IMG/VR virus record: IMGVR_UViG_3300035180_000968
Span: 1-36,728 of that record
DNA length: 36,728 bases
Strand: one strand, 5' to 3'
From: a virus
Shown here: piece after piece, positions 20,369 to 36,157 of the stretch
Layout: each line of letters begins with the position of its first letter
How positions within the stretch are numbered: the stretch's first letter is position 1
Made by a program: the position numbers and the translations under genes
Notes under the pieces: generated by a model
What the model saw: the letters and a program-made list of their open reading frames with translations, nothing else
The model's database searches: none
Told to the model about the DNA's origin: nothing

Positions 20369-20369
20369 T

Positions 20370-21038: not shown

Positions 21039-21058
21039 GTAACCCATAACCAAGGAGA
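21035..21058 (+). repeat. 24-bp direct repeat, copy 1
   Basis: Exact 24-base repeat beginning GTAAGTAACCC and ending CCAAGGAGA. It contains the thyX stop codon and the AAGGAGA ribosome binding site of gene 21065. The second identical copy is at 21712-21735. The two bracket a two-gene cassette. Confidence 0.95.
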
Positions 21059-21064
21059 AAGGAA

Positions 21065-21418
21065 ATGAGTGAAACGTGTAACTGGATTGAAGACGACGGC
21101 GGTGTTTGGGGTACTGAATGCGGAAACTTTTTTGACCTAAGAGATGGCACTCCACACGAAAATGGTATGCACTGGTGTCCGTACTGCGGCATGAGCCTGC
21201 AAGAAACCAAAGGGTCGTCGTTCTCGAATGTAGGGTTAGGTGGCACGATATGGGGATACGGTGAGGATAACGACGGCTGGTATGTCGGCCCACCGGGAGA
21301 GCAAATCGGCTACGCAATTTCTGAGTCCAACGCTAAGCGGATAGTGGCCTGCGTTAATGCCTGCATTGGGATACCTATAGATGTTCTCAATATCAATGGT
21401 GTGTCGCCTAACCCGTGA
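21065..21418 (+). CDS. small zinc-ribbon protein
   Basis: 117 residues. The N-terminal half has CNW, TECGN and HWCPYCG, a C-x14-C ... C-x2-C zinc-ribbon arrangement common in short phage accessory proteins. The C-terminal half (GEQIGYAISESNAKRIVACVNACIG) looks like a separate small helical domain often found in phage hypotheticals. AAGGAGA lies six bases upstream, inside the first 24-bp repeat. With the next gene it forms a cassette between direct repeats. Function unknown. Confidence 0.72.
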   Translation: MSETCNWIEDDGGVWGTECGNFFDLRDGTPHENGMHWCPYCGMSLQETKGSSFSNVGLGGTIWGYGEDNDGWYVGPPGEQIGYAISESNAKRIVACVNACIGIPIDVLNINGVSPNP

Positions 21419-21494
21419 TACGCACCAAGGGGCGACGGCGGCTTTATCGCTAGCATCTCGCTCGAAAGTATAGTTATGTCAACAGGGGAATAGG

Positions 21495-21719
21495 ATGACG
21501 AAAGATAAATACCCGCAATACCGAGTGGCGCAGTGGGTATCTAGCCGCCAGAGTGGGATGGCACGCATTCATGAAACCGTCCTTTATGGCGTGCAGGTTA
21601 AGTATGAAGAGGACGGCAGGTGGTCACATGTCGTCAGCAAAGAACCAATGTTTTTTAATTCGCCGGAAGAGGCTCAGGTCGCATGTGATGAGTTAGCAGC
21701 CTCCCCACCCCGTAAGTAA
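21495..21719 (+). CDS. hypothetical small protein in repeat-flanked cassette
   Basis: 74 residues, not recognised. AGGGGA lies nine bases before ATG 21495. It looks like a small alpha/beta domain: strands QYRVAQWVS and VLYGVQVKYEEDGRWSHV, then helix SPEEAQVACDELA. Its stop codon (TAA) is the first part of the second 24-bp direct repeat. The 76-base gap before it holds no recognisable gene. It seems to have entered together with gene 21065. Confidence 0.65.
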   Translation: MTKDKYPQYRVAQWVSSRQSGMARIHETVLYGVQVKYEEDGRWSHVVSKEPMFFNSPEEAQVACDELAASPPRK

Positions 21720-21735
21720 CCCATAACCAAGGAGA
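21712..21735 (+). repeat. 24-bp direct repeat, copy 2
   Basis: Identical to 21035-21058. Here it spans the stop codon of gene 21495 and the ribosome binding site of the J-domain gene. Loss or gain of the 677-bp segment by recombination between copies would leave a perfect gene junction between thyX and the J-domain gene. Confidence 0.95.
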
Positions 21736-21741
21736 TTCAAA

Positions 21742-22359
21742 ATGCTAGCGAGCTACTACGAAAGACTAGGTGTCGCACCCAATGCTACCCCCATTGAAAT
21801 AAAAGCGGCCTATCGACGCCTAGCAAGAATTAAGCACCCTGATAAGGGTGGGACCACCGAGGAATTCCAGTGGTTGCAGAAAGCATACGAAACTCTAATG
21901 GATGCAGACAAGAGAGCGGCCTATGATAAGTTTGGCCGGGATGCCAATTACGCCACCAATCTTGAAAAAGCACAACAGGAGCTAGTAGCTCTATTCACTA
22001 GCATGTCTGATAAGGCATCTGACGGACATTCGTTTCCCACAACATTGAACTTAGTGAATGAGGTGAGGCGCTTCATAATCACCTCCATCCTGAACCTTAA
22101 ACGAAGTATCGAGGGGCTGCTGGCAAAAAGTAATAAACTAAAAAAGATATCAAAGCGCCTGACCAGCGCGGGTGGTAACTCTATCCTGCATAACGCACTA
22201 CGTGAGCAGAGAAAGAACTGCCTACGCACAGTTAAGCATGTGCGAGAAGACCGCAAGCACCTAGTTATGATGGCTAGTCTGGTGGATGAATACAGCTACT
22301 CAACGGATATCCAAGTGCCTAGGGTAGTCAAAGAAATGGAATGGGTTACCACAGCATGA
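21742..22359 (+). CDS. J-domain (DnaJ-like) protein
   Basis: 205 residues. Residues 3-66 are a canonical J-domain: [20 protein letters not shown], the HPD triad at 32-34, then [21 protein letters not shown]. No Gly/Phe region, zinc domain or client-binding DnaJ C-domain follows; the remaining ~135 residues are helical and basic, with no family I recognise. It may hijack host DnaK for replication or virion assembly (inference). AAGGAGA is seven bases upstream, within the 24-bp repeat. The next small gene overlaps its stop (ATGA). Confidence 0.85.
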
Positions 22360-22568
22360 GACAACTGCACGGGTACCAGGCGCTGAAGTCAAAGGTACAC
22401 TTACACCTTGATGAGGAGGGAAAGTGGGTACGCTGCTACCATAGCACCAGGTCTGCACTAACATCATGGGGATTCTGGGTAGGTATAACCTTCAGCTTCC
22501 CTCTAGAGCACATGCTGTGGGAAAAGGTATGGCCTTTCAATGCAGTTGCTAGATGGATGGGCTTGTAA
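22356..22568 (+). CDS. small probable membrane-associated protein
   Basis: 70 residues, starting in an ATGA overlap with the J-domain gene. The N-terminal half is soluble ([20 protein letters not shown]). Residues ~35-60 are aromatic/hydrophobic ([18 protein letters not shown]), possibly one membrane-interfacing helix. No family recognised. Translational coupling to the J-domain gene suggests joint expression. Confidence 0.55.
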
Positions 22569-22611
22569 GTGCGTAGTACACAGTCCCTGTCATTAAACAT
22601 AGGAGATAAAG

Positions 22612-22896
22612 ATGAGATTATGGGTAGTTGAACGTAACTGCAAAGGCAGTCGGGTATGGCTTCCAGTCTACCAATCAATCAGGCTATCAATAGCAGAAGA
22701 CGAAATGATGAGGCTTCGTAACCGTGACCTCCTCACCAACCCAAACCGCTACCGGGTTATTGAGTATGTGGATGTGCGCTCTGCCATGCAATCATACGAG
22801 CCTCCAATGATCACTTACCTATCCCTGGTATCGATCTACCTGCTAGCAGGTATGTGCTTTGGTATGGGCTTGCAGTATGCCTACCAGGTATTCTAA
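22612..22896 (+). CDS. small protein with C-terminal membrane helix
   Basis: 94 residues with TAGGAGA seven bases before ATG 22612. The first ~65 residues are soluble and basic. Residues ~67-90 (ITYLSLVSIYLLAGMCFGMG) form one clear transmembrane helix, so it is probably a tail-anchored protein. The repeat array begins four bases after its stop. No function recognised. Confidence 0.62.
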   Translation: MRLWVVERNCKGSRVWLPVYQSIRLSIAEDEMMRLRNRDLLTNPNRYRVIEYVDVRSAMQSYEPPMITYLSLVSIYLLAGMCFGMGLQYAYQVF

Positions 22897-22900
22897 AAAT

Positions 22901-23090
22901 GGAACATCCTTAGAACATCCAAGGATCATGTGGATCATCCAGGATCATCCAAGGATCATGTGGATCATCCAGGAACTTCCAAGGATCATCCAAGGATCAT
23001 CCAAAGAACATATGGAACATCCAGGAACTTCCAAAGAACTTCCATAGAACAAGAGGAACAAGAGGAACATAAGGAACATGAAGAACAAAT
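22901..23090 (+). repeat. array of ~19 short 9-11 bp repeats (array 1)
   Basis: Tandem units of the form GGAWCATCCA/AGAACATCCAA (W is A or T), each 9, 10 or 11 bases with a mean of about 10.0, run from just after the stop of gene 22612. Typical units are GGATCATCCA, GGAACATCCA, GGATCATGT and GGAACTTCCAA; the 3' end decays to GGAACAAGA/GGAACATAA. A 24-base block recurs exactly with a 30-base shift (22921 and 22951). Units with GATC cluster in the middle. The last units run into the start codon of gene 23078. Related array 2 lies at 25561-25657. Confidence 0.9.
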
Positions 23091-23311
23091 GCCTAGAGAA
23101 AAAGCCAGTATACCCAATGAGAGCAGCAATCCTTGTATACAAACACAAACTCCCAACCAAGCTATTAGATAAAGCCCATAGCTATGGCTTAGCAGCGGGC
23201 ATATCCCCTGAGATCGTTACCCTAGTAGCCAAGACAGAGTCTGTAGAGGAACTGCTGGCATTGCTAATGAAAGCAGGGGCGCTGTATAAACGCAGGCCTG
23301 CACTAGGATAA
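23078..23311 (+). CDS. hypothetical small protein beginning in the repeat array
   Basis: 77 residues from ATG 23078, whose start lies inside a repeat unit (GGAACATGA). AAGG is only three bases upstream, so ATG 23117 (MRAAILVYKHKLP) is a possible alternative, though it lacks a ribosome site. The body is alpha-helical (LLDKAHSYGLAAGISPEIVT, then VEELLALLMKAGALYKRR). It is coupled to the next gene by TAATG. No function recognised. Confidence 0.55.
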   Translation: MKNKCLEKKPVYPMRAAILVYKHKLPTKLLDKAHSYGLAAGISPEIVTLVAKTESVEELLALLMKAGALYKRRPALG

Positions 23312-23550
23312 TGCTTTTAATAGAAGTCCTAAGTGAGCTCAACAGGGAGCTATGCAAAGGGTACCTGATGCTGCACCCAACCAGAAGGTACTGCTTGATA
23401 GTGGCTGCCACCCGCCCCAGCCTGAATACCACTAGAAACATAATAGAGAAGCATAGGCCTATAGGCATTGAAGTCGTGTATAGGCGTATAGGCGTATATG
23501 AGAGCATATTAACCACACGCTTTGTCTTTATCCCCAACAGGGCTAAGTAA
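23311..23550 (+). CDS. hypothetical small protein
   Basis: 79 residues, ATG overlapping the preceding stop by one base (TAATG). Short alpha/beta pattern: helix LLIEVLSELNRELCKGYLML, strand YCLIVAATR, helix TRNIIEKHRPIG, strand IEVVYRRIGV, strand TRFVFIPNR. No motif recognised. It is the last gene before the 300-bp structured gap upstream of terS. Confidence 0.58.
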   Translation: MLLIEVLSELNRELCKGYLMLHPTRRYCLIVAATRPSLNTTRNIIEKHRPIGIEVVYRRIGVYESILTTRFVFIPNRAK

Positions 23551-23601
23551 TGTAGGCAGGTTCTGCGGTAGTGCCTAAGAAAAGGCACACACAAGTAGTA
23601 G

Positions 23602-23631
23602 TTGGCATCTAGATAGATTATTGAATATTAA
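23602..23631 (+). promoter_or_regulatory. possible sigma-70 promoter upstream of terminase leader
   Basis: TTGGCA (23602-23607, 5 of 6 matches) and TATTAA (23626-23631, 4 of 6) are separated by 18 bases. It shares the TTGGC element with the stronger promoter at 19305 and lies at the same relative place, upstream of a structured RNA. The match is moderate. Confidence 0.4.
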
Positions 23632-23649
23632 AAGGTTAGGTGATAAACA

Positions 23650-23790
23650 GGGGTGTTACCCTTGTACCGACAGCATCCCCGGCCCTAGGATACGTTCCCA
23701 ATAGCTAGGCTGAAGTAGTAACGGATCCTAGCTAGGCGAGACATAGTAGGGCAGTCTCCTCCAGATGGGCCATAACCAATAGGCCTATCC
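23650..23790 (+). ncRNA. second structured intergenic RNA, upstream of terS
   Basis: The 300-base gap 23551-23851 has no gene. Stems visible include TAGGCA/TGCCTA (23553-23577), GGGG-TGTT / AGCA-T-CCCC (23650-23680), and two mutually exclusive helices that share 23727-23731: CTAGGAT (23685-23691) with ATCCTAG (23725-23731), or AGCTAGG (23703-23709) with CCTAGCT (23727-23733). A further GGGCC/GGCCT pairing lies near 23767-23784. An intrinsic terminator follows at once. The bistable pairing followed by a terminator resembles an attenuator or riboswitch layout; a free RNA is equally possible. Confidence 0.45.
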
Positions 23791-23792
23791 TT

Positions 23793-23834
23793 AAAGCCAC
23801 CTCTTGCAGCAATGCACTTGGTGGCTTTCTTTTT
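23793..23834 (+). terminator. intrinsic terminator upstream of terS
   Basis: Perfect 9-bp stem AAAGCCACC / GGTGGCTTT with an inner TGCA-GCAA-TGCA hairpin (GNRA loop), followed by CTTTTT. It ends 17 bases before the terS start, so terminase expression either reads through it, escapes by attenuation, or starts downstream. Confidence 0.85.
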
Positions 23835-23851
23835 GTCTAGGAGTTAGCACA

Positions 23852-24181
23852 GTGAAGCAGATAAAACCGACTGAGTCTGAGTCGGATCCAAAACCTAACC
23901 TCCCACGCAGGGAAAGCAAAGTTAATCGCCTTGCTATAGAAGCGGCCCATCGCACAGGCCTACTACCACATGAGTTCTTATTGAAGATAAGCCGGGGTGG
24001 TAGGATAGATGGAGTAAAACCGGACCTAGCCATGCGTATAGGCTGTGCTAAAGCAGCAGCACCCTACTACGCACCTAAGCTGTCAGCGGTAGAGTTGATC
24101 AAAGATCTATCGGATGATGAGTTGGCCTCAATTATTGAAGGTACCGCAAATGAAGCGGGTTTTGTTATTAAGCCCAAATGA
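23852..24181 (+). CDS. terS: terminase small subunit (putative)
   Basis: 109 residues from GTG 23852, chosen because CTAGGAG lies eight bases upstream; upstream in-frame codons run through the terminator hairpin. The central helices [18 protein letters not shown] and [20 protein letters not shown] resemble a widespread small phage protein encoded just before large terminases. It overlaps terL by 4 bp (ATGA). It presumably recognises the packaging site. The repeat arrays on either side of terS-terL are candidate targets. Confidence 0.68.
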
Positions 24182-25563
24182 GCTTAGTACAATCCTTTAG
24201 AGCCCTCCCAGCTAAGCAGGTGCTGGCGATAGCCCTAGCAGAGAAAGCGCGTAGGGATAAGTTCAGGGGACTCAGTCACGAAGAGCTAGTAGTAAGGCCT
24301 GAGTTTGCAGCGATTAACAGCCTGGTACTTGATAGTAGGCACCCGCTTAGCGATTTGATGCGGCCTTCCCGGTACAAGGTATTCTATGGGGGTCGGGGTA
24401 GTGGCAAGTCGTGGGGGTTTGGCGAGGCGCTCATAAGGCGTGCCTCGGTTGAGCCCATCCGCATCCTATGCACCCGGGAATACCAGAACAGCATTGCTGA
24501 CTCAGTGCACCGCCTGCTGACGGATACCATTGACCGCCTGGGTATGAATAGCTGGTTCAAGACTACCAAGAACAGCGTGGTATCAAGGTCTGGCGCCGAG
24601 TTCATATTTAAAGGCTTGCATAACAACATCCAGGAGATTAAGTCTACTGAGGGTGTTGACATATGCTGGGTAGAAGAAGCACAGGATGTAACGCATGAGA
24701 GTTGGGAAGTACTAGGGCCTACTATCCGAGGCGCTGACTCGGAGATCTGGGTTAGCTTCAATACCACGGATGAGCAAGCTGCGACCTATCAAAGGTTCGT
24801 CAAGCACAAGCCTAGGAATGCAGTAGTGCACAAGCTTAACTTTGACCAGAACCCACACTTCACAGCAGTGCTTGAGGGGGAGCGTCAGTACTACCTAGGC
24901 TTGATTGAGGATGCAACCAGCACCAGTGAGAGGGCAGATGCACAGGCAGCCTATGACCATATATGGCTTGGCTCCCCACGCAAGTATAATCAAGCAGTCA
25001 TCTTTGCAGGCAAGTTCGTCATTGAATCCTTCCCTGACGACTTGTATAAGATGGCAGATCGTCTGCACTTTGGCGCTGACTTTGGATTCTCCCAAGACCC
25101 GAGCACCTTGCTTCGTATGTTCATATTGGAGAATACCCTCTATGTCGAATATGAGGCCTATGGGGTAGGAGTAGAGTTGGATGAGATGGAAGAGTTCTAC
25201 GACGCTATTCCAGGCAGCAGGGAATGGCCAATTAAGGGTGATGGAAGTCGCCCTGAGACCATCAGCTACATCAAGCGCAAGGCCTTCAGCATTAGTGCAG
25301 CAGAGAAGTGGCCAGGCAGCGTAGAGGATGGCATCACCCACCTCAAAGGCTTTAAGAAGATTGTCATCCACACGCGCTGCAAGCATACAGCCAATGAGGC
25401 AAGGTTATATAGTTATAAAACTGATAGGGTCACCCGTGAGGTGTTGCCGATCGTTGTAGACGCGCACAACCATTGTTTTGATGCAATCCGCTACGGTCTT
25501 GATGGCTACATCCAGAGAAGGGGTAACCTCAATATGTGGGAGCGCCTGGGGAAATCAGAGTAA
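24178..25563 (+). CDS. terL: terminase large subunit, PBSX type
   Basis: 461 residues, packaging motor. ATPase domain: Walker A GGRGSGKS (about 72-79) and Walker [10 protein letters not shown] (about 160-168), with WVSFNTTDE as the coupling segment. RNase H-like nuclease domain: acidic motif [12 protein letters not shown] near residue 300, then [14 protein letters not shown] and a C-terminal [17 protein letters not shown]. The layout is that of Terminase_3/PBSX family proteins. The stop codon is the first part of repeat array 2. Confidence 0.93.
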
Positions 25564-25657
25564 CATCCAAGGATCATATGGAACATCCTTAGAACATCCA
25601 GGAACATATGGAACATCCAAGGATCATGGGGATCATCCAGGAACACGGGGAAACATG
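25561..25657 (+). repeat. array of ~10 short repeats (array 2)
   Basis: Begins at the terL stop codon and ends at the start codon of gene 25655. About ten units of 9-11 bases use the same words as array 1 (GGATCATAT, GGAACATCCTT, AGAACATCCA, GGATCATCCA). A 22-base string is identical between 25579-25600 and 22900-22921. The two arrays bracket a 2.5-kb block that contains terS and terL. Confidence 0.9.
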
Positions 25658-25867
25658 ACAAGCGATTATCAACCTAGTTTCTTCTTCGGGGTACTGGGCA
25701 GCTCACCAACAGATTGCGATGTAACGCTGCACCAGTTCTTCGAGTCGAGTGCGGAGTGCACTCACGCGGCGGAAATGACCAAACGCGACTACCCCACCTA
25801 TAGCTTCAGGATGTGGCAGCGGAACCAGCACGGTCAGTGGTATTCTTTTAACCAGTGGATAGTATGA
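25655..25867 (+). CDS. hypothetical small protein after terL
   Basis: 70 residues, ATG 25655 inside the last unit of repeat array 2, with GGGGA as a close ribosome site. The sequence is rich in Cys, His and aromatic residues (CDVTLHQFFESSAECTHAAE, then MWQRNQHGQWYSFNQW). No family recognised. An ORF open through the array itself extends upstream in frame but is judged not to be coding. Confidence 0.5.
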   Translation: MTSDYQPSFFFGVLGSSPTDCDVTLHQFFESSAECTHAAEMTKRDYPTYSFRMWQRNQHGQWYSFNQWIV

Positions 25868-25879
25868 GAGGAAATGATT

Positions 25880-26056
25880 ATGTCTTTTAAGATCGGCGAT
25901 GAAGTGAAGCCCAAAGTAACAGCCCCTGTAGGCGAAGTGCAGGATGCCCGCATGAATACAAGTGGTGGGGAACTGGAATACCTGGTTACCTACGCAGATG
26001 CAGACGGGGAAGCCCAAGAGCGGTGGTTCCTTGAATCACAAATCGAAGCAGTCTAA
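25880..26056 (+). CDS. small SH3-like (DUF2158-type) protein
   Basis: 58 residues from ATG 25880; GAGG lies eight bases upstream, whereas ATG 25874 would leave only two. The pattern FKIGDEVKPKV, GELEYLVTYAD, EERWF-like end (AQERWFLESQIEAV) fits a small SH3-type barrel similar to DUF2158 proteins. Function unknown. It sits between terminase and virion genes. Confidence 0.6.
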   Translation: MSFKIGDEVKPKVTAPVGEVQDARMNTSGGELEYLVTYADADGEAQERWFLESQIEAV

Positions 26057-26065
26057 GGAAACGAT

Positions 26066-26620
26066 ATGAAAGAACTATTCAAAATGAATGCAGCAGCAGT
26101 GGCAGTGGTTGCACAGGCAGGCGGCATTGGCGAGGCCCTAGCAATGGAGGGCTACTACGAGGTTGAGTGCTTCAACCCTGATGGTACCTTAGCTTGGCGG
26201 GACCAGATTCATAACCTGATCCCCACGGCAGGCAAGAACCTTGCGTTGGATACCCTGCTGTCAGGCAGTGCCTATACCGCTGCGTTCTATATGGGCTTGG
26301 TGGATGGCGCATCAGCACCCACCTTCAACACAGCTGATACCGCTGCTTCTCATGCAGGCTGGACTGAGAACCAAGGCTACTCCGCAGGCACAAGACCCGC
26401 GCCAAGCTTCTCGGCCGCATCAGCAGGGGTCAAGGCTACCAGTGCCGCCTTGAGCTTCACTGCGAACGCGACGGGCACTATTGCAGGCTGCTTCATTGCA
26501 ACCAGCAACGTGAAGGGCGGTGCCGCTGGTACGGTGCTTTCGGAAGGTGCATTCGCAGGCGGTAGCCAAGCAGTAACCAGCGGCAGCATCATCAACGTTT
26601 CTTACAGTCTGAGCGTGTAA
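26066..26620 (+). CDS. phage virion-associated structural protein
   Basis: 184 residues. The segment YYEVECFNPDGTLAWRDQIH followed by NLALDTLLSG and YMGLVDG is a recurrent pattern in phage structural or decoration proteins. The rest is Ala/Gly/Ser/Thr-rich beta structure with AATSNVKGG and GSQAVTSGS turns. AAGGA precedes the start by five bases. It opens a virion/host-interaction block between terL and portal. The exact location in the particle is not known. Confidence 0.6.
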   Translation: MKELFKMNAAAVAVVAQAGGIGEALAMEGYYEVECFNPDGTLAWRDQIHNLIPTAGKNLALDTLLSGSAYTAAFYMGLVDGASAPTFNTADTAASHAGWTENQGYSAGTRPAPSFSAASAGVKATSAALSFTANATGTIAGCFIATSNVKGGAAGTVLSEGAFAGGSQAVTSGSIINVSYSLSV

Positions 26621-26625
26621 GAACC

Positions 26626-26647
26626 CGGGGCTCTTGACTGAGCCCCG
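26626..26647 (+). other. strong hairpin without T-tract
   Basis: Perfect 8-bp stem CGGGGCTC / GAGCCCCG with loop TTGACT, just after the stop of gene 26066 and 23 bases before the next start. No T run follows, so it is more likely an mRNA-stabilising or processing site than a terminator. Confidence 0.6.
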
Positions 26648-26670
26648 ACCCCTGCACTAGAAAGGTAATT

Positions 26671-28131
26671 ATGACAGCTGTTAGCACCCAGTTAGCCCAT
26701 GGCATTAAGGCTACCACCACTACGGTAGGCACAGGAGCTTTAACCCTCGTCTCCCTAGCAGGTTTCATGCTACCCCTTGCCCGGTTCTCTGTGGGCAGTC
26801 TAATGAGCTACTCCCTGCAAGATGGCAACAACCGGGAATGGGGGATTGGTACCGTTGCAGCAGGTAACGTACTAAACCGGACTACCATCACAGGCACCCT
26901 GGTAGCCGGCACTTACACTACGGGTGGTGCAGCTCTTACCCTATCAGGAGGCACTTCTCTGTTAGAGTGCGTAGAGCATGAAGGATCTGCCCTAGATACT
27001 ATTGACAATGCCAACGCGTTGAGACTTAAAGTTTCCGACGTATACTCAGACTTCGTCGCATTCGGACTTGTCACTGGCACCAGCGCGTCCTTATCGGGCG
27101 TTATGACTCCTGGCGCTGCTTATGTGCTTGGCACGCGCGTCGAGAAGCTGATTGCAGACGCCACGCTGACCTTCACCTATGCAGTATCAAGTGATACCTA
27201 CAACGACATAAGCAATGCAGGCGTTATTACCCACGTTGCGGTTGCAAATGGTGCAGCAGCGCCAGCGGTAACGGCCAACTCAATGCGTCTTGAGAAGGTG
27301 GTGACCAGCGGCACTGCAATTACTTCCGTGGTGAGGTTGGTAGGTAGAAGTTTGCCAGTGGCGGTGAAAGATCCGGTTACCGGCACTACTGTATTGGAGG
27401 CGGGTGGCGTTGCTATCCCAACCCCAGGCAACTTGGCTACCAACGGATTCGCGGCACTCGGGGTTATCGTAGCGGGTGGCGTTCCGGGTACAGCTTTGGT
27501 GGACTCTACTGGTGCAACGCCACCCGCGATTCAAGCGCAATGGGTGCCGCGTACCGGTACCTTTTTGACCCTATCGACAACCACACTGAATCCCGGCGAG
27601 ATTGCCACGGCTACTGACCAGAAAGCCCTTTACGTTAACAACTCCACAGTTTCAGCCGTCGGCAGCGTATATCGCCAGAACTTGGGCTTGTGGACTGCTG
27701 GAGCCAGCCCACAGTCATCAGTAACCCTGACTGCCGCAAATACGAACTACGAGGTACCGCTGAAGACTGTTATATCAGACACGTCCTCAATGATGCAGGC
27801 AAGCACTGGCTACATTTTCCCTGTGAATGGGGCAAATGTTATCCAAGTTACGGGCGTATTTAACTTTACTTACGACTCTGGTGCAACTCGAACGAAATGC
27901 AAGGTCAGCTTGCAACAAGAGAGCCCGCTAAATTCCAGTACTTGGATAACCATAGATTCCATCACGTTTCCGGCTAATCAGTTAGGTGCGACCGGACCAG
28001 CGTTTTATATCGCGCTATCGATATATACGCCAGATACAGGGCGTATTCGCATAGTGGCGCAGCATGACATTGCTGGGGGCACAGTAAATACATCATTGTC
28101 CGGGCTCGTAATCAAACAAAGCGTAATTTGA
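26671..28131 (+). CDS. tail fibre-like virion protein
   Basis: 486 residues. The N-terminal ~105 residues (GIKATTTTVGTGALTLVSLA, then DGNNREWGIGTV and LNRTTI) match a common virion-anchoring module seen in many phage fibres and structural proteins. The remainder is a Ser/Thr/Val-rich beta region that changes base-use style near 27,030, suggesting a swapped C-terminal part. The last ~140 residues look like a compact beta-sandwich (receptor-binding or trimer tip). The next gene starts in a TGATG overlap, linking this fibre to the protease-like protein. Confidence 0.65.
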   Translation: MTAVSTQLAHGIKATTTTVGTGALTLVSLAGFMLPLARFSVGSLMSYSLQDGNNREWGIGTVAAGNVLNRTTITGTLVAGTYTTGGAALTLSGGTSLLECVEHEGSALDTIDNANALRLKVSDVYSDFVAFGLVTGTSASLSGVMTPGAAYVLGTRVEKLIADATLTFTYAVSSDTYNDISNAGVITHVAVANGAAAPAVTANSMRLEKVVTSGTAITSVVRLVGRSLPVAVKDPVTGTTVLEAGGVAIPTPGNLATNGFAALGVIVAGGVPGTALVDSTGATPPAIQAQWVPRTGTFLTLSTTTLNPGEIATATDQKALYVNNSTVSAVGSVYRQNLGLWTAGASPQSSVTLTAANTNYEVPLKTVISDTSSMMQASTGYIFPVNGANVIQVTGVFNFTYDSGATRTKCKVSLQQESPLNSSTWITIDSITFPANQLGATGPAFYIALSIYTPDTGRIRIVAQHDIAGGTVNTSLSGLVIKQSVI

Positions 28132-29456
28132 TGAAACTGCAATTTGACCTTGCCGGGCAGCAAATTCGAGGTCCGAATTCCGCTGACGACTTCATATATA
28201 CGATAACGCCCTTTAGTGTGGGCGCTACTGTCGGTACGCCTACTGTATCCAACAACTACGATGCTGTGGTGTATAACATCGTCAACACCGGAGCGCGGGT
28301 AGATTTGAAAATCGACGTTTCTCAGTCGTTTGCTAATTCAAATAAGAGTTTGTCGTTTGCAAGTCTCACGCCTTCGATTGCTACTGTAGATGGCACTGGC
28401 TATGTCACTGCCCTTACAGATGGGACTGCGACCATTTTGGCAAAGTCGGGCGGAATAGAGCGCCGTATTTCGCTAGATATGCAAATCGTGGCCACGCTTA
28501 ACACGCACACTCTTATTTCCTACCGAACCGATGCTGGCACGTCTCTAGGGGCACATGCGTCCGCGCAAATAAACGCACTCATCGCGGGGAAGGATGCCCA
28601 AGGCAATGTTAACAGTACGAGCGGTACTCAAACCATGTGGGCTTCTAATAACCACGACGCCGCTGCTCCGGTTGTTACGCGCAACAGCGGATTTTTTGGC
28701 GCTGGGCTTAATAACATCACAGCCATCGGTGCAATGAACGCATCGAACGCATTGAACGAAGACGCAAGGGTTCACCCCCCTTTGCTGGTGACTGCACGGC
28801 ACATATTCGGCGCAAATCATTACCAAACAAACAACGGGATTATTGGAGATAAGGTTGTTTTTGTTCGTACCGATGGCAGCCTGCAAACCGAAACACTCAT
28901 TGATAAGTGGTCAGACCCCGACAGCGACGACCATTGGATTGGCTTATTGAGCAACCCAATTACCGGATGCACTCCGTTTCAGATCATGCCGACAGGTTGG
29001 CAAAATTACATTAAGAGCTTGGATACAAACTATGGCAACGCGGACGGTACCTGGGTGGGTAACATACCAGTGCTTGCTCGCGTTTTTCATCGACCAGATG
29101 GAGTGGAAGATGAACGCGTCAATATATTATCGCTCGTTGGTCTGAGTTCGCTGGCCAATGTGCAGCCGTACGATAGGCCGTTTGTCGGCGTAGGTAGACA
29201 GCCGGACTACTTAACCTCTCCGCTTTATGGGTGGTTTGCGCCAATCATCGGTGGTGATTCAGGCGGTCCTGTGGCAATGGTTGTAAATAACAATCTTGTG
29301 TTGCTCACGACATTTCACTACACAGGGGGAGGAGTATCGATTGAGCGTGACGCAGCTGAATATGAAACTCAAATGAGGCGCATGGCGGCCTTGGTTGGTG
29401 ACAACACAGCGTATGCGTTTACCCGCGCTGATTTGTCTTCCTTCGCAACATATTGA
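28131..29456 (+). CDS. trypsin-like serine protease with Ig-like domain
   Basis: 441 residues from ATG 28131. Residues ~65-125 resemble a bacterial Ig-like (BIG2) domain (SLTPSIATVDGTGYVTALTD). The C-terminal part has the S1/trypsin catalytic pattern: LLVTARHIFG with H224 (compare VLTAAHC), a DSDDHWIGLL segment with D266 or D267 (compare DIALL), and IGGDSGGPV with S377. All three residues are in the right order and context, so an active peptidase is plausible. It may cleave host surface proteins or mature the adjacent fibre. No signal peptide is seen, consistent with a virion protein. Base use differs from neighbouring genes, suggesting recent acquisition. Confidence 0.75.
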   Translation: MKLQFDLAGQQIRGPNSADDFIYTITPFSVGATVGTPTVSNNYDAVVYNIVNTGARVDLKIDVSQSFANSNKSLSFASLTPSIATVDGTGYVTALTDGTATILAKSGGIERRISLDMQIVATLNTHTLISYRTDAGTSLGAHASAQINALIAGKDAQGNVNSTSGTQTMWASNNHDAAAPVVTRNSGFFGAGLNNITAIGAMNASNALNEDARVHPPLLVTARHIFGANHYQTNNGIIGDKVVFVRTDGSLQTETLIDKWSDPDSDDHWIGLLSNPITGCTPFQIMPTGWQNYIKSLDTNYGNADGTWVGNIPVLARVFHRPDGVEDERVNILSLVGLSSLANVQPYDRPFVGVGRQPDYLTSPLYGWFAPIIGGDSGGPVAMVVNNNLVLLTTFHYTGGGVSIERDAAEYETQMRRMAALVGDNTAYAFTRADLSSFATY

Positions 29457-29554
29457 CCTAGAGCACCACGACAGGCCCGCAGCACCTTGCTGGAAGCTTA
29501 AGAGGGTGACCTAGATCGAAGTTCATAGGCCTAGATGTCTGGGCCCGCGATAAC

Positions 29555-29568
29555 CCCGGGTACCCGGG
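29555..29568. repeat. 14-bp perfect palindrome
   Basis: CCCGGGTACCCGGG lies in the 140-base gap 29457-29596, about 30 bases before gene 29597. The gap also contains CAGCA-CCT-TGCTG near 29478. No T tract follows either; possible RNA processing element or protein-binding site. Confidence 0.5.
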
Positions 29569-29596
29569 TATTCTAACCAAGTAAAGGAGTATTACA

Positions 29597-29899
29597 ATGA
29601 GCAAAGCAGTTCTAGCATCAATCATCCTGGGCACATTCATAGCAGCAGAACCGGTCACCGGCATTCGCGTCACCTTGAAAGACTCTACTGGAGGCAACCC
29701 TGACTTGGTCGCTACAGAGTCACCGGGATCAGCCAATGCCCTTTTCACAGTCGAGCCTGGTACCTGGTCTGCCACCTACCAAGCCTTTGGCACAGTAGCT
29801 GACATCGGCCCCGCATTCACCACCGACCCCTTGGTGGTAGAAGCCATCGCAACAGTGGTCGTGCAGATCCCTGTAGGTGGGGCACTAGCAGCAGCATGA
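29597..29899 (+). CDS. small beta-rich virion-type protein
   Basis: 100 residues with AAAGGAG eight bases upstream. The first 20 residues are hydrophobic (AVLASIILGTFIAAEPVTG) but lack a basic n-region, so a signal peptide is doubtful. The rest is beta-sandwich-like (GIRVTLKDSTGG, FTVEPGTWSATYQAFG, VVEAIATVVVQIPVGG). Similar short carbohydrate-contact or decoration modules occur near phage fibres. Function unassigned. Confidence 0.65.
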   Translation: MSKAVLASIILGTFIAAEPVTGIRVTLKDSTGGNPDLVATESPGSANALFTVEPGTWSATYQAFGTVADIGPAFTTDPLVVEAIATVVVQIPVGGALAAA

Positions 29900-30081
29900 A
29901 GTACCGGCGAGCCCACCATCACCATCGCCATCATGGCGGGGCTGTGGATAACCCGGGATGCCTGTCTTTGTTTCTTCGCAAGATGCTCCGCTTGGATAGG
30001 GGCTTCTATGTACTGCTCCCGGTAGGTGGTTCTCTGAGGTTACTGCCTCAGCTAACCCACCGATGCCGTAGTAATGGTTGA
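29896..30081 (+). CDS. possible small His-rich protein
   Basis: 61 codons starting in an ATGA overlap, with no separate ribosome site. The N-terminus is AHHHHRHHGG; the rest is basic/hydrophobic. The 3' half coincides with a strong RNA hairpin at 30025-30061. It may be a real coupled gene, or a chance ORF over a structured leader of the next gene. Confidence 0.35.
   Translation: MKYRRAHHHHRHHGGAVDNPGCLSLFLRKMLRLDRGFYVLLPVGGSLRLLPQLTHRCRSNG
30025..30061 (+). other. long RNA hairpin
   Basis: Outer stem GGTGGTT / AACCCACC (one bulged base) and inner stem CTGAGG / CCTCAG with loop TTACTG. It precedes another hairpin at 30090 and gene 30129. No T tract, so not a typical terminator. Confidence 0.5.
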
Positions 30082-30089
30082 AATTGATT

Positions 30090-30107
30090 CTCCGGGGAAA
30101 CCCGGAG
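30090..30107 (+). other. GNRA-capped hairpin before gene 30129
   Basis: Perfect 7-bp stem CTCCGGG-GAAA-CCCGGAG, ending 10 bases before the AAGGA of gene 30129. It could protect the mRNA 5' end after processing. Confidence 0.6.
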
Positions 30108-30128
30108 TCTCTAACTAAGGAATTCAAT

Positions 30129-30908
30129 ATGGCTTTCGGAACTAGTAGCTTTGGTACCGCTGGGTTCGGCTCGCTCACCTCCGGGGGCATGGTAGTAGTC
30201 AGTACTGCTGAGGTAGGTGCACTGGCAGATGCCTCAAGCCAGGCCGCCTCGTTTAGTGGTTCGGTAGCAGAAGCAGGTACACTGGCAGATAGCTTCAGCA
30301 ACTCCCTTATATTTCCCCTCAGTGTTGTTGAGTCGGCAGCCCTGTTAGATTCGGTCACTGGGGTAACCACCTACTTCTTGCAGGTGTCAGAGGCAGGCGC
30401 CTTGGTGGAGCTTATAGGGGCGGGTGCGGTGTTGTCAGCAACCCAAGCTGATTCAGCTGCCCTTTCTGATTGGTTAGCAGCAGGTCAGATTTACGAAGTA
30501 GTTCAAAACGAGGTAGCTGCCCTTAGCGATGCCTCAGATGGGGTATTAGTAGTTTCGGTGGTACTGGTGCTGGGTACAGCACAGCTGTCGGATGGTCCTT
30601 CTGTAGCTAGTGGTCGCCGCAAGCTGATGAACTACTACGTGCTGGGTGGGGAGGTTACTATGATCTCCTCCTTTGCAGATGTTAATGGGCTCCCAGTTAA
30701 TCCCATCTCGGTATCAGCTGAGGTACTCAAACCTGACAACACGAAGGTGCAGTTCTCAGGGAGTCAGATAACAAGCTTGGGTGGTGGTTCATACCAAGTC
30801 AACTACACGCCCGACCAAACGGGCATCTACTTCTATCGCTTCACCGGCGTTGGATCAAACCAAGTAGTGGCAGAAGCTTACTTCCTGGTACAGAGGGCTT
30901 ACAACTAA
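30129..30908 (+). CDS. virion protein with exact 20-residue tandem repeats
   Basis: 259 residues from ATG 30129 (AAGGA seven bases upstream). A Gly/Phe-rich head (FGTSSFGTAGFGS) is followed by seven repeats with a period of 20: acidic residues at 28, 48, 68, 88, 108 and 128, each followed by L four later (32, 52, 72, 92, 112, 132) and an acidic residue six later (34, 54, 74, 94, 114, 134). The consensus is V-x-E-x-A-A-L-x-D. A seventh, slipped copy (GTAQLSD) ends the array. Residues ~165-259 form an Ig-like beta domain (YYVLGGEVTMISSFADVNG, VNYTPDQTGIYFYRF). It directly precedes the portal. Probably a fibre or neck component; function inferred. Confidence 0.72.
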   Translation: MAFGTSSFGTAGFGSLTSGGMVVVSTAEVGALADASSQAASFSGSVAEAGTLADSFSNSLIFPLSVVESAALLDSVTGVTTYFLQVSEAGALVELIGAGAVLSATQADSAALSDWLAAGQIYEVVQNEVAALSDASDGVLVVSVVLVLGTAQLSDGPSVASGRRKLMNYYVLGGEVTMISSFADVNGLPVNPISVSAEVLKPDNTKVQFSGSQITSLGGGSYQVNYTPDQTGIYFYRFTGVGSNQVVAEAYFLVQRAYN

Positions 30909-32384
30909 ATGGCAAAGCAGCGTAAGGTAAGCATTGTAGCCGCAGCTAACAAAGAAGCAGTAGCACAGGCAGAGGTGCTCAGGCAGGCTACCCAAGACAG
31001 CAAGGTAAGGCAGTCAACGACGGACTCCTTCATAAACCTAGCACAGCGGATGGGCATTGGGGCGGATAATGCACTGACCTCATCCTCGTATGGTTACAAC
31101 CCCATCACCCGCAACCGGGTCATGCTGGAATGGATTCACCGGGGAAGTTGGATCGGTGGGGTTGCAGTTGATGTGGTCGCTGACGACATGACCCGCGCAG
31201 GTGTGGACTTCGAAGGTGAGATTGATGCTGGGGATATGCAGTCCATGCGGGAGTCTGAAGTCAGTCTAGGTTTGTGGAACGCAATCAATGACGGTATCAA
31301 ATGGTCTCGCTTATATGGTGGGGCCATCGTGGTCATGATGATTGACGGGCAGGATATGAAAACCCCGCTTCGTCTGGATACCGTAGCGAAGGGTCAGTTC
31401 AAAGGGTTGATTACTCTTGATCGCTGGATGGTAGAGCCGTCGCTTAACGACCTAGTCACTGACATGGGCCCAAACATTGGGATGCCAAAGTTCTACCGCT
31501 GCAATAGTGGAGCGCCTGCATTCCAAGGGAAGCTGATTCACTTCTCCCGCGTCATCCGACTGGAGGGCTTAAAGCTGCCCTACTGGCAACGGGTGACGGA
31601 GCAGCTGTGGGGCCTATCGGTGCTGGAAAGGATCTATGATCGCATGGTAGCCTTCGACTCGGCAACTACTGGTGCAGCTCAGCTTGTATACAAAAGCTAC
31701 CTCCGCACTTTGAAGGTTAAGGATATGCGTGAGATCGTATCAAGCTCTGGAGCAGCGGTGGATGGTTTGGTCAAGTATGTGGAGATGATGAGGCGCTTCC
31801 AGGGTATTGAAGGCATCAGCCTTATCGACGCTGAGGATGATATCAGCTCGGAGCAGCACGGCGCCTTCAGTGGGCTGTCGGATGCACTTACCCAGTTCGG
31901 GCAGCAGCTTGCCGGTGCACTGCAGATTCCACTGGTAAGATTGTTTGGCCAGTCGCCCTCAGGCTTCAGCACTGGGGATGCCGATATGCAGAACTACTAC
32001 GACGGCATCTACCAAAAGCAGGAAAAGGAATTGCGGGTAGGCGTGACGAACATCTACCGATGCCTAGCTGCCTCAGAAGAGGTGGAGCTGCCAGAAGGCT
32101 TCCGCGTTAAGTTCAACTCGCTGTGGGAAATAGACTCCGAGAAGAAAGCTAACATCGCCACAAGCCTTACCAACGCGGTTATTGCAGTCCATACCGCTGG
32201 GCTTATCAGTGACCAGGTTGCTCTACAGGAGCTGCGGCAGTCATCGCATGAGACGGGCATCTTCACTAACATCACTGAAGAGCTTATTGAGCAGGCCAGT
32301 GAAGACCCAGTACCGCCAGCAGATCTTGCAATGGCAGAGGAAGGTGCAGACGATGGGAATGATGGTGCAGACAGTCAACCGTAA
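30909..32384 (+). CDS. portal protein (DUF1073-type)
   Basis: 491 residues. It matches the DUF1073-type portal pattern: SSYGYNPITRNRVMLEWIHR, SWIGGVAVDVVADDMTRAGV, WSRLYGGAIVVMMIDGQD, LRLDTVAKGQFKGL and a C-terminal QIPLVRLFGQSPSGFSTGD. It forms the dodecameric ring through which DNA enters the head. ATG follows the preceding stop without a gap. The C-terminal tail is acidic (AEEGADDGND) and overlaps the next gene by 32 bp. Confidence 0.88.
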   Translation: MAKQRKVSIVAAANKEAVAQAEVLRQATQDSKVRQSTTDSFINLAQRMGIGADNALTSSSYGYNPITRNRVMLEWIHRGSWIGGVAVDVVADDMTRAGVDFEGEIDAGDMQSMRESEVSLGLWNAINDGIKWSRLYGGAIVVMMIDGQDMKTPLRLDTVAKGQFKGLITLDRWMVEPSLNDLVTDMGPNIGMPKFYRCNSGAPAFQGKLIHFSRVIRLEGLKLPYWQRVTEQLWGLSVLERIYDRMVAFDSATTGAAQLVYKSYLRTLKVKDMREIVSSSGAAVDGLVKYVEMMRRFQGIEGISLIDAEDDISSEQHGAFSGLSDALTQFGQQLAGALQIPLVRLFGQSPSGFSTGDADMQNYYDGIYQKQEKELRVGVTNIYRCLAASEEVELPEGFRVKFNSLWEIDSEKKANIATSLTNAVIAVHTAGLISDQVALQELRQSSHETGIFTNITEELIEQASEDPVPPADLAMAEEGADDGNDGADSQP

Positions 32385-33144
32385 GACGATTGATGCTTAT
32401 CGCACCAGAGCCAAAATTGCCCGGGAGCGTTTCAACAACTCCCGCAAGGCGGAGAAGTCTTACGCAAGACAGTTAAGGCAGGTGGCTAAGCAGATCGGGA
32501 GCATCATCAATGGCATGACTGACCCCAACTTCTTGCCTAATGAATCCAAGATGCGGGCTGCCCTGCAAAAGTACAGCGAGCTGCTTAATCCATGGGCAAG
32601 GTCGGTGGCTAAGAAGATGCTAGATGAGGTAGGCCTGCGAGATGCTAAGGCCTGGGCTGAATACGGGGATGACCTAGGTAAGGCCCTACGGCAGGAGGTT
32701 TTAACAGCGCCTACTGGGGCCTGGTTGGTCTCAATGCTGGAAGAGCAGGTCACTTTAATCACAAGCCTGCCCCTCAAAGCTGCAAAGCGTGTGCATGACC
32801 TGACTTTGAATGGTTTGGCTGAAGGCACCCGCGCTGCGGATATTGCCAAAGAGATTATGAGGACAGGCAAGGTAACCGAAGGCAGAGCAAAGCTGATCGC
32901 ACGAACTGAGGTAGCTCGCACCGCTGCTGGCCTGACAATGGCACGCGCCACTCATGTTGGAAGCCCGGGTTACTTCTGGCGCACTGCAAAGGATGCAGAC
33001 GTCAGGCACAGTCACAAGCTTATGGAAGGGAAGTATGTGGAATGGGATAAGCCTCCCACCCTTGAAGATGGTACCGTTACCCATGCTGGTATGATTTACA
33101 ACTGTAGGTGTTATGCCGAGCCCTACTTACCGGAGTTGGATTGA
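32353..33144 (+). CDS. Mu F-like head morphogenesis protein
   Basis: 263 residues from ATG 32353, preceded by GAGGAAGG eight bases upstream; ATG 32359 or 32362 are alternatives. The C-terminal part has the Phage_Mu_F signature: ARTEVARTAAGLTMARA, then WRTAKDADVRHSHKLMEGKY and MIYNCRCYAEP, with a conserved Cys pair in NCRC. Such proteins are minor head components injected or placed at the portal. It overlaps the portal gene by 32 bp and the next gene by one base. Confidence 0.85.
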   Translation: MGMMVQTVNRKTIDAYRTRAKIARERFNNSRKAEKSYARQLRQVAKQIGSIINGMTDPNFLPNESKMRAALQKYSELLNPWARSVAKKMLDEVGLRDAKAWAEYGDDLGKALRQEVLTAPTGAWLVSMLEEQVTLITSLPLKAAKRVHDLTLNGLAEGTRAADIAKEIMRTGKVTEGRAKLIARTEVARTAAGLTMARATHVGSPGYFWRTAKDADVRHSHKLMEGKYVEWDKPPTLEDGTVTHAGMIYNCRCYAEPYLPELD

Positions 33145-33542
33145 TGAAACTACTAAAATTTATATTTTGCTCAGCGATTTGGCTCCTAGCATTTTTACCG
33201 ATGGTACTCCTGAGCTTTGCGGTAGTGCCTATTATGTGCCTGACTAACTGGGATGGTAAGACTACCTGGTTCGGTAACTTTAAATATGGTAGAGGGGATA
33301 CCCACTACAAGGCGCCCTCGAATGGCAAGTACTGGTTACAGCTGCGGTTCCTGTGCATTCGGAACCCAGTCAGCAACTTCGGGAAATGGGTGCTATCGGT
33401 AGTCGATGCCCCTTGGGTATGGTTGATCGATGCCAAGGTGTACAAGAACTTCTACTGGAAGTTCGGCTGGAAGGGTCCAGACCCCAACGCAGCTATTAAG
33501 TTACGCACCTTCGTCTACCGCCCTTGGCTTCACAGGAACTAA
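33144..33542 (+). CDS. conserved phage protein with N-terminal membrane segment (DUF7338-like)
   Basis: 132 residues, starting in a TGATG overlap. Residues ~5-32 are hydrophobic (FIFCSAIWLLAFLPMVLLSF), one membrane anchor or signal. The rest is aromatic (FYWKFGWKGPDPNAAIKLRT, FVYRPW) and resembles a phage family of unknown function found near head genes. It is odd to find a membrane protein among head genes; it may assist assembly or be a late accessory gene. Confidence 0.6.
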   Translation: MKLLKFIFCSAIWLLAFLPMVLLSFAVVPIMCLTNWDGKTTWFGNFKYGRGDTHYKAPSNGKYWLQLRFLCIRNPVSNFGKWVLSVVDAPWVWLIDAKVYKNFYWKFGWKGPDPNAAIKLRTFVYRPWLHRN

Positions 33543-33545
33543 ATC

Positions 33546-34184
33546 ATGGCAAAACATATTCACATCCACCTCCCCAAGAATGCCATCCCGGCTCTGCTGC
33601 TCCCTAAGAAGACGCAGGACGCGGAAGCATACAAGGCAACCTACGAGCAGTCGAAGTTCGGTAAGAAAGGGTACCGGCCGAAGGTTCTGGGCAGCGACGG
33701 CAGAACGGTGTTCCTGAGCCAGGCTTCCTTCCTCACCGAGATGGAGGCTATTCGGGTAGCCCAGAGCTACGCCGACCAGCTGAAGCGCGGGGTAGGCGAA
33801 CCAAGAACCCCGTTCCAGGGCACCGCCGATTCCGACAAGACCGGAAACGATGCCTTGGGCGAGTTGCGTCGGAAGCGCCAGCGCCTTGAAGAGGAGCTGG
33901 ACAAGTCTGACGACTCAGGGGACAACCGGCAGATGGACCGCATCAAGAAGGAGCTTGCCCAGGTCAACAAGTCCATCAAGGAGGTGGAGAAGAAGGATAC
34001 CAAGGATGCCGACCACAAGTCATTCACTTCGATCTACTCTACCGCACGCGATAAGGCTGCCGGGAAGGTGTATAAGGTGGTGGCGCAGGATGCCAAGAGT
34101 AAGGACCAGGTTAGATACCTGCTCCTGAAAATGCCCCATGCAAACGTTTGGTGGTCTATCGATAAACTGGAGCCCGTGATATGA
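33546..34184 (+). CDS. hypothetical protein with coiled coil
   Basis: 212 residues. AGGA eight bases before ATG 33546. The N-terminal ~80 residues are basic (KKTQDAEAYKATYEQSKFGK, GYRPKVLGSDGRTVFLSQ). Residues ~105-155 form a charged coiled coil (ELRRKRQRLEEELDKSDD, then QMDRIKKELAQVNKSIKE). The last ~50 are alpha/beta. It overlaps the protease gene by 4 bp (ATGA). Position suggests a capsid-assembly accessory role; no family recognised. Confidence 0.65.
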   Translation: MAKHIHIHLPKNAIPALLLPKKTQDAEAYKATYEQSKFGKKGYRPKVLGSDGRTVFLSQASFLTEMEAIRVAQSYADQLKRGVGEPRTPFQGTADSDKTGNDALGELRRKRQRLEEELDKSDDSGDNRQMDRIKKELAQVNKSIKEVEKKDTKDADHKSFTSIYSTARDKAAGKVYKVVAQDAKSKDQVRYLLLKMPHANVWWSIDKLEPVI

Positions 34185-35605
34185 AATACAGATTCCATTC
34201 AGTGGAGCAGCTAGGCAAGAAGCGCAGTCTGACGCCGGAAGGCTTCTTGGTCTGCGAGGACGTGCCCATCTCTCGCACTGGCACGATGATGTATGGGCCT
34301 GACGAACTGCCTATTGATGGCAGTAAACAAGGCTACGTGAAGATCAAGCGGGATGCAGCCGACCTGTTCAATGAAACCACTATTGCCAGCTTCATGGGCA
34401 AGGCAGTTACGATCAACCATCCAGAGGAGGATGTAAACCCTAACAACTGGCATGACTTATCAGTGGGCGTAGTCCATAACGTGCGGCGAGGAGTAGGTAT
34501 TGAGGACGACCTACTACTGGCTGATTTATTCATCACCAACAAGGATGTCATCGCCCAGCTATCAAACGACCTGATAGAAGTATCGGCTGGGTACGATGCA
34601 GACTATGAGGAGACTGGACCAGGAGAAGGAGCCCAAACAAACATTGTAGGGAATCACGTAGCGTTGGTTGAATCGGGTCGTTGTGGACCACGCTGTTCTG
34701 TAAGAGATAGCGACGACCCATCACTTGTAGTTGTTAAAAAGGAGCTTCACATGAAGTTAAAGAAAAAGGGTTTCACCCTTGACGCTTTGCTAAGGCGAAT
34801 CCGTAAGGCCACAAAGGATGAGGATCCTGAGGCACTGGAAGCAGCACTAGCAGAAGCTGAAGAGGGTGGCGTAACTGAAGACGACGCCTTGCCGGAAGCA
34901 GCCGATCCCGGTGACATCCATGTTCACATTCACAATGGTGCTGCCGAGACTCTGGGCACGACTACGGTGGAGGATGAGGTACCGCCTGCGGATGAAAAGA
35001 AAGGCACCTATGATGATGAACTCGGTGGTCGTATTGATGCACTAGAAGCTGGGCATACAGAAATCCTTGCCCAGCTGGCAGCCATCAGCGAGAAGCTTGG
35101 CGGCGGTGGGGGCAGCACTGACGATGCAGAGAACGAAGAGCTGAAGGAAGAGATGAAGAAGGAAGATGAATCTGGGGCTACGAATGATGCAGCCTTTAAA
35201 TTCACGGACTCCGCATTCCTATCCAAGTCCTTCCGTGATACGATGTCGAAGGCTGAAATCCTGGTACCGGGCATTCGTGTTCCGACCTACGATGCCAAAG
35301 CACCGGCCCACATCACCTTCCGCAAGATCTGTGGCACCCGCCGCACTGCTCTTGACTTAGCCTACGCTCAGCCTGCTACGCGCAGTGTCATTGATGATGT
35401 GTTGGATGGAAAGCATCTCGACACTCACAAGATGACCTGTGATGCAGTTCGCCAAGCTTTTGATGCCTCGGTACTGGTGCAGAAACGTTCCAACAACCAC
35501 CAGTCTCAGCACTCAGGCTCTCAACCAGCCAAACAAGCCGGGGCTACTATCACAAGTATCTCTGACCTCAACAAGGCCAATTCTCAGTTTTGGGCCGACA
35601 AATAA
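34181..35605 (+). CDS. DUF2213-type prohead protease fused to scaffold
   Basis: 474 residues. Residues 1-~170 match DUF2213-type phage proteases: GFLVCEDVPISRTG, FMGKAVTINHP, SVGVVHNVRRG, LIEVSAGYDADYEE and the terminal NHVALVESGRCG. Residues ~190-335 are acidic and low-complexity with coiled-coil stretches, typical of scaffold, and the C-terminal ~135 residues form another domain (GIRVPTYDAKAPAHITFRK). A strong internal ribosome site and in-frame ATG at 34751 suggest the scaffold is also made alone. Confidence 0.82.
   Translation: MKYRFHSVEQLGKKRSLTPEGFLVCEDVPISRTGTMMYGPDELPIDGSKQGYVKIKRDAADLFNETTIASFMGKAVTINHPEEDVNPNNWHDLSVGVVHNVRRGVGIEDDLLLADLFITNKDVIAQLSNDLIEVSAGYDADYEETGPGEGAQTNIVGNHVALVESGRCGPRCSVRDSDDPSLVVVKKELHMKLKKKGFTLDALLRRIRKATKDEDPEALEAALAEAEEGGVTEDDALPEAADPGDIHVHIHNGAAETLGTTTVEDEVPPADEKKGTYDDELGGRIDALEAGHTEILAQLAAISEKLGGGGGSTDDAENEELKEEMKKEDESGATNDAAFKFTDSAFLSKSFRDTMSKAEILVPGIRVPTYDAKAPAHITFRKICGTRRTALDLAYAQPATRSVIDDVLDGKHLDTHKMTCDAVRQAFDASVLVQKRSNNHQSQHSGSQPAKQAGATITSISDLNKANSQFWADK
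34751..35605 (+). CDS. nested in-frame scaffold protein (probable)
   Basis: ATG 34751 is codon 191 of the protease gene, preceded by AAGGAG with a six-base spacer, as good a signal as for most genes here. The product (284 residues) starts MKLKKKGFTLDALLRRIRK and comprises the acidic coiled-coil and C-terminal parts without the protease domain. This is the arrangement of lambda C/Nu3 and many other phages, where excess scaffold is made from an internal start. Confidence 0.6.
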   Translation: MKLKKKGFTLDALLRRIRKATKDEDPEALEAALAEAEEGGVTEDDALPEAADPGDIHVHIHNGAAETLGTTTVEDEVPPADEKKGTYDDELGGRIDALEAGHTEILAQLAAISEKLGGGGGSTDDAENEELKEEMKKEDESGATNDAAFKFTDSAFLSKSFRDTMSKAEILVPGIRVPTYDAKAPAHITFRKICGTRRTALDLAYAQPATRSVIDDVLDGKHLDTHKMTCDAVRQAFDASVLVQKRSNNHQSQHSGSQPAKQAGATITSISDLNKANSQFWADK

Positions 35606-35614
35606 AGGATGAAC

Positions 35615-36157
35615 ATGAAAACTCGATTCAAGACTCGTGACGTAGCTTTCCAGTTCCGTATGGGCGCTGGAAATCCCGGTGACGTCAACCGCACCCACCC
35701 CGCTGGCATTGAAGCGGCCCTCCAAAACGCTACCAACCCCAACCTGATCTTCGGCGGTGCGGCGGTAGTTGATACCACAACGCAGACGGTGCGTCGGACT
35801 ATTGCAGGTGATTCTGCAATTACCAACGTGTACGGTTTCACAGTGCGTTCCTACCCGACTCAGTCGCCTGCTGGCGGCCAGTTCGGCTCGGAAACGCTGG
35901 GTTCAGCCGTGCCCCCTGCTACGGGCGTCATTGACATCCTTCGCAGTGGTTACATCATGGCGAAGCTGCCCTCCGATGCTGCCGCTGCCAAAAAAGGCGG
36001 TCAGGTATTCATCTGGGTAGCTGCAAGTAGCGGCACCCACACTCAGGGTGGAGTAGAAATGGTTGCCTCTTCTGGCAATACCGCGGCTCTTGCCAACACG
36101 ACTTTCAACGGCACCCAAGATGCAAACGGTGTGGTTGAAGTCGCTCACAACATTTAA
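35615..36157 (+). CDS. capsid cement/decoration protein
   Basis: 180 residues from ATG 35615; TAAAGGA lies five bases upstream, whereas ATG 35609 overlaps that site. The sequence (AFQFRMGAGNPGDVNRTHPA, GVIDILRSGYIMAKLP, KKGGQVFIWVAASSGTHTQG) fits the phage gp24-type structural cement family encoded next to major capsid genes. It probably binds the capsid surface in large copy number. Confidence 0.72.
   Translation: MKTRFKTRDVAFQFRMGAGNPGDVNRTHPAGIEAALQNATNPNLIFGGAAVVDTTTQTVRRTIAGDSAITNVYGFTVRSYPTQSPAGGQFGSETLGSAVPPATGVIDILRSGYIMAKLPSDAAAAKKGGQVFIWVAASSGTHTQGGVEMVASSGNTAALANTTFNGTQDANGVVEVAHNI

Follow-up and report, generated by a model that had tools for sequence, protein, structure and literature searches.

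A predicted trypsin-fold serine protease encoded beside a fibre-like gene in an IMG/VR phage, and the family to which it belongs

What would a protein resembling trypsin do among the virion genes of a phage? The question is raised by a gene in IMG/VR virus record IMGVR_UViG_3300035180_000968, of which a stretch of 36,728 bases, here called the window, was analyzed (Table 1). The start codon of this gene shares one base with the TGA stop (28129-28131) of a fibre-like ORF, giving the sequence TGATG; the ORF list also offers a TTG at 28128, which is no more than an alternative start. The N-terminal part matches the Pfam family Big_2 (PF02368; residues 50-104, E 2.9e-7, above cut-off). Both the coupling to a fibre-like gene and the attached Ig-like domain, claimed in the original prediction, are thus borne out.

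Table 1. Features of the window discussed in the text, with the basis for each assignment.
Feature	Position	Strand	Basis
Terminase large subunit (terL), left flank of insert	24178..25563	+	Pfam Terminase_3, E 3e-34
184-aa protein, phrog_8123; distant homologues among KPP25-like phage structural genes	26066..26620	+	
486-aa fibre-like protein	26671..28131	+	ORF; weak Mtd_N match
Ig-like (Big_2) and predicted trypsin-fold serine protease, 441 aa/codons	28131..29456	+	ORF, Pfam, AF2, Foldseek
Ig-like (Big_2) domain, residues about 50-117	28278..28481	+	Pfam PF02368; model beta strands
Predicted S1-fold protease domain, residues about 181-421	28671..29393	+	Family alignment, AF2 model, Foldseek
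H224 (TARH), catalytic His of the original prediction; chymotrypsin position 51	28800..28802	+	Alignments, model
H230 (GANHY), most likely catalytic His; H57 equivalent	28818..28820	+	Profile alignments; 54/54
D267 (DDHWIGLL), predicted catalytic Asp; D102 equivalent	28929..28931	+	54/54
S377 (GGDSGGPV), predicted catalytic Ser; S195 equivalent	29259..29261	+	54/54
C-terminal motif YAFTRADLSSFATY, outside classical S1 core	29412..29453	+	Two family alignments
100-aa protein, same insert, function unassigned	29597..29899	+	ORF list
276-aa protein, same insert, C-terminal part possibly Ig-like	30078..30908	+	ORF, Pfam
Portal protein, right flank of insert	30909..32384	+	phrog_146, E 1e-123
Head maturation protease, separate gene	34181-35605		Profile match

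The protease domain was recognised by none of the profile libraries searched, and PF00089 (peptidase family S1) gave no match to the window protein at E 1 and hence none above the Pfam gathering cut-off. A structure was predicted with AlphaFold2 (AF2) from an alignment of 54 homologues found by sequence, with no trypsins used. When the resulting model (pLDDT 81, pTM 0.78) was compared to the PDB with Foldseek, trypsin-fold proteins accounted for all 50 of the matches listed (best E 1e-6, probability 1.00, TM up to 0.62 on target). According to the model, the domain has the two-barrel chymotrypsin fold, the outcome on which the original prediction had staked its reading.

All 54 non-redundant family members keep H224, H230, D267, D376, S377 and P380, so the proposal of a complete S1-type triad, including S377 in GGDSGGPV, holds in that a serine, an aspartate and a histidine are invariant, but the residues named for it need correction. 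The aspartate had been given as D266/267, and only D267 is conserved, D266 varying among the 54 members. The histidine had been given as H224, which is invariant too and lies in a TARH motif resembling TAAH. However, the family profile stretch aGtLvtprHvigAaHy pairs with GGTLITPNHVLTAAHC of chymotrypsinogen C, and likewise with a trypsin, and these profile alignments match H57 with the second histidine, H230, and put H224 at position 51. The model agrees, since H224 begins a strand (224-228) that is followed, as in chymotrypsin, by a short helix (229-231) containing H230; one further strand comes just after D267, and another after S377. That H224 serves as the catalytic base is very improbable, and the predicted triad, intact and in the order His-Asp-Ser, is most likely H230-D267-S377.

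Common to the window protein and peptidase family S1 (PF00089) are the double beta-barrel, the H-D-S order, GDSGGP, D194, and the strand and short helix around H57. In contrast to S1, it goes unrecognised by PF00089 and is without the IVGG (Ile/Val16) activation N-terminus, none being present ahead of H230 in its sequence. It also has an extra invariant histidine six residues before H57, and adds conserved RN and E328 motifs, an N-terminal Ig domain and a C-terminal tail with the consensus YxLTExDLSxF. Among relatives, three of 18 match PF00089 (best E 2.9e-4), and one (L139) scores 17.7 bits, below the cut-off of 20.6.

Direct searches with the single protein returned only a near-identical sister contig from viral_contigs and zero matches among phages or plasmids (0/50,697 named phage records), and a pattern scan for GGDSGGPV gave unrelated S1 proteins and chance frames only. 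The family was reached by scanning IMG/VR for the pattern GGDSGNP[AV]F and testing the candidates by phmmer and BLAST. Each of the 24 loci found encodes a protein homologous to that of the window, with phmmer E values from 3e-27 to 5e-6 and up to 426 aligned BLAST columns that included the Ig region. A search with the family alignment gave 97 relatives in IMG/VR; 28 family loci are found in bacterial genomes or MAGs, largely of Verrucomicrobiota and Planctomycetota. In the alignment, the protease row of virus record L132 is identical to that of locus L176 in Anabaena lutea FACHB-196. A search with a relative found a member in one of the 50,697 GenBank phage records: UOF78081.1 of the Manatee Spring podovirus (MW202510), which lies beside virion structural genes. 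The rarity claimed for chymotrypsin-fold proteases in phages thus holds for cultured phages and fails for uncultured ones. The near absence from cultured phages may also explain why profile libraries miss the family. From end to end, the model is matched by A0A6J7XEP5, an uncultured-phage protein in BFVD (E 1.2e-18); for this protein, as for UOF78081.1, annotation goes no further than uncharacterised or hypothetical.

The window protein is a divergent member, with about 20–30% identity to its relatives and a long branch (2.45 changes per column) in a tree where viral and bacterial sequences are intermixed. It carries the residues by which members are recognised (N185, H224, H230, D267, D376, S377 and P380) and the C-terminal DL motif, but in the 54-member alignment it alone has GDSGGP, nearly all the others having GDSGNP. 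Five short (about 250 aa), lipoprotein-like relatives (L193, L197, L199, L189 and L185) form a deep Verrucomicrobiota branch that is apparently cellular rather than phage, and another member (L155:1788-3374) is fused to a galactosyltransferase domain (Pfam E 1.3e-11). A different S1-like set on viral contigs (L015, L030, L033, L040 and L047) has TA[RG]H, ARGGDSGGPV and long C-terminal extensions, ending in a hydrophobic segment in several, and is not significantly similar to the present family by BLAST. No description of the family was found in the literature searched; a cluster of alphaproteobacterial phages has an annotated trypsin-like protease (PMC10783043). The 'serine protease' of DLP3, which sits between the portal and major capsid genes (PMC7326821), looks like a different case.

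The neighbours of the relatives provide the stronger connection to tail fibres. In 34 of 45 relatives the gene starts no more than 25 bases from an upstream ORF on the same strand, although such spacing alone is weak evidence, as tightly packed genes are common in phages. The upstream protein has an Mtd_N domain in 6 of 32 cases, with one case each of BppU_N, YadA_head, collagen, Laminin_G, phage tail repeat, endosialidase barrel and baseplate gp6, while a few neighbours are of non-fibre type (glycosyltransferase, sulfotransferase, AAA ATPase). Some family members are themselves fused to other modules: a baseplate wedge domain (L172), a T4-gp15-like tail sheath stabiliser (L128, with a GTG start) and fn3/DUF285 modules (L106). 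The case for fibre and protease as a functional pair is best made by two large phage contigs (L112:5858-11185 and L126:2460-7607), both with the order fibre-protease-fibre-protease. Their second cassettes are 92–97% identical between contigs. The first cassettes differ, with a likeness among fibres confined to about 100 N-terminal residues (39–55% identity), and the proteases share 33–41% identity over their length, within and between cassettes. Judged from these sequences, one of the fibre-protease cassettes is exchanged as a unit. In the window itself, the product of the upstream gene has an Mtd_N match at residues 296-322 that falls below the cut-off (E 0.021), and no homologues of it were found among phage records, so it is called fibre-like on weak grounds.

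The position of the window gene is less typical. A sister record, IMGVR_UViG_3300035181_000611, matches window positions 20896-36728 at 100% identity and continues for about 21 kb, encoding tail sheath, tape measure, baseplate, tail fibre and endolysin, a gene set that marks a contractile-tailed phage. Edwardsiella phage ZHS, together with further phages that are mostly proteobacterial, has the portal and terminase proteins nearest to those of the window. In Edwardsiella phage ZHS and Bordetella phage IFTN9 terL and portal lie near each other, while in the window five main genes, starting at 26066, 26671, 28131, 29597 and 30078, separate them. A protease at the corresponding place is absent from related phages with a similar portal, and by this sequence comparison the gene appears as part of a five-gene insert. 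The fourth of these genes has no family match in Pfam and phrog searches, and the fifth has a TTG start with an in-frame ATG further downstream. By the gene order of the sister contig, the main tail-fibre module lies elsewhere. The setting among fibre genes that had been claimed for the protease is thus found in its relatives, with their tail and fibre neighbours, whereas the window gene lies between terL and portal. As this location is unusual, a head- or neck-attached fibre is also conceivable.

Short imperfect repeats (type GGAACATCCAAGGATCAT) are arrayed at 22901-23088 and 25559-25660, flanking the terminase gene, and are possibly a packaging site, a regulatory site or a trace of insertion. 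A thymidylate synthase gene is present at 20229-21038 (phrog_85, E 4e-67). Among the long repeats of window positions 20000-36728, no template/variable repeat of a diversity-generating retroelement was seen.

By a crude score of N-terminal hydrophobicity, no signal peptide is seen in the window protein, and a strongly hydrophobic N-terminus is absent from 46 of 48 testable viral members. The same score finds one in 13 of 29 bacterial ORFs, and many bacterial members look lipoprotein-like or secreted. Lacking an export signal, a viral protease would have either to travel with the particle or to be released when the cell lyses.

Taken together, these sequence and model data suggest a virion protein that serves an adhesion fibre as its enzymatic partner and cuts a host surface protein, a reading to which we give about an even chance. 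The Ig-like domain would fix or space the protease on the particle, beside the fibre-like product, and the C-terminal domain would be an active enzyme. Once the fibre had bound the host, the protease would trim a cell-surface protein, whether a receptor, S-layer, pilus or other proteinaceous coat. The original prediction had likewise put forward receptor cutting and cleavage of a capsule or S-layer, along with fibre maturation, as possible roles. It would be the protein counterpart of polysaccharide depolymerases (tailspikes), which offer an analogy as enzymes on adsorption fibres that open the host surface, but these cut glycans, and no homology to them was seen. For the window phage we infer the presence in the virion, the catalytic activity and the substrate. 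In favor of the proposal are the fold, the 54/54 triad, the fusions to tail proteins, the fibre-type neighbours, the tandem cassettes and the lack of a signal peptide. Against it, every strong link to the virion comes from distant relatives, the window gene lies away from the tail-fibre module, and there are the long branch, the lone GDSGGP, the sub-threshold fibre match, the non-fibre neighbours of some relatives and the tight packing of genes.

The main rival is a fibre-maturation protease that makes one cut in its partner fibre, or in itself, during assembly and has no host substrate. The pairing evidence fits it as well as it fits host-surface cutting, since tight coupling with a fibre-type gene and joint cassette exchange are consistent with a protease suited to the one fibre it accompanies. 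The Peptidase S74 intramolecular chaperones of endosialidases and tailspikes likewise link a protease activity to phage fibres. However, S74 differs in fold and mechanism and, being part of the fibre's own C-terminus, works in cis, whereas the present protease is a separate gene, without a Pfam match to S74 in the window protein. The upstream partners are so diverse in sequence that a common cleavage site is not obvious, and relatives joined to a baseplate wedge or to a sheath stabiliser are better explained by a resident enzyme of the virion. We consider maturation unlikely, at perhaps half the weight of the host-surface reading.

A soluble enzyme freed at lysis, or a cargo gene of bacterial origin with no relation to the particle, is less probable again. 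The often secreted or lipoprotein-like bacterial homologues, the mingling of viral and bacterial sequences in the tree, and the place of the window gene within an insert are in keeping with it, but the fusions to tail proteins and the coupling to fibre genes across many phages, as well as the location inside a morphogenesis gene cluster, speak for a role in the particle. Slightly more doubtful still is an S1 fold that only binds a ligand, as in hepatocyte growth factor (HGF), on a protein whose Ig domain decorates the virion. Structures of the HGF beta-chain are among the Foldseek matches, and Ig-like domains are common decorations of phage surfaces, yet pseudo-proteases normally lose the triad and the D194-S195-P198 equivalents that all 54 divergent members retain. 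Phage head maturation proteases are likewise encoded within morphogenesis gene clusters, but they belong to different families, and a prohead role is unlikely because the window phage has its own separate enzyme of this kind.

For the preferred reading, a protease that acts with its fibre on the host surface, the implications extend to the whole family. Most of the enzymes known from phage fibres have polysaccharides as substrates, and the present findings suggest that what some phages bring to bear on the cell surface includes a protease besides enzymes that cut sugars. More tentatively, and with somewhat less confidence than we place in the role of the single protein, the family may represent widespread phage 'protein depolymerases': trypsin-fold proteases in exchangeable fibre and protease cassettes that would cut host surface proteins at entry and help to set host range. 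If this is true, many uncultured phages would attack protein barriers or receptors, and the family would be a sequence marker for finding the targets of those phages.
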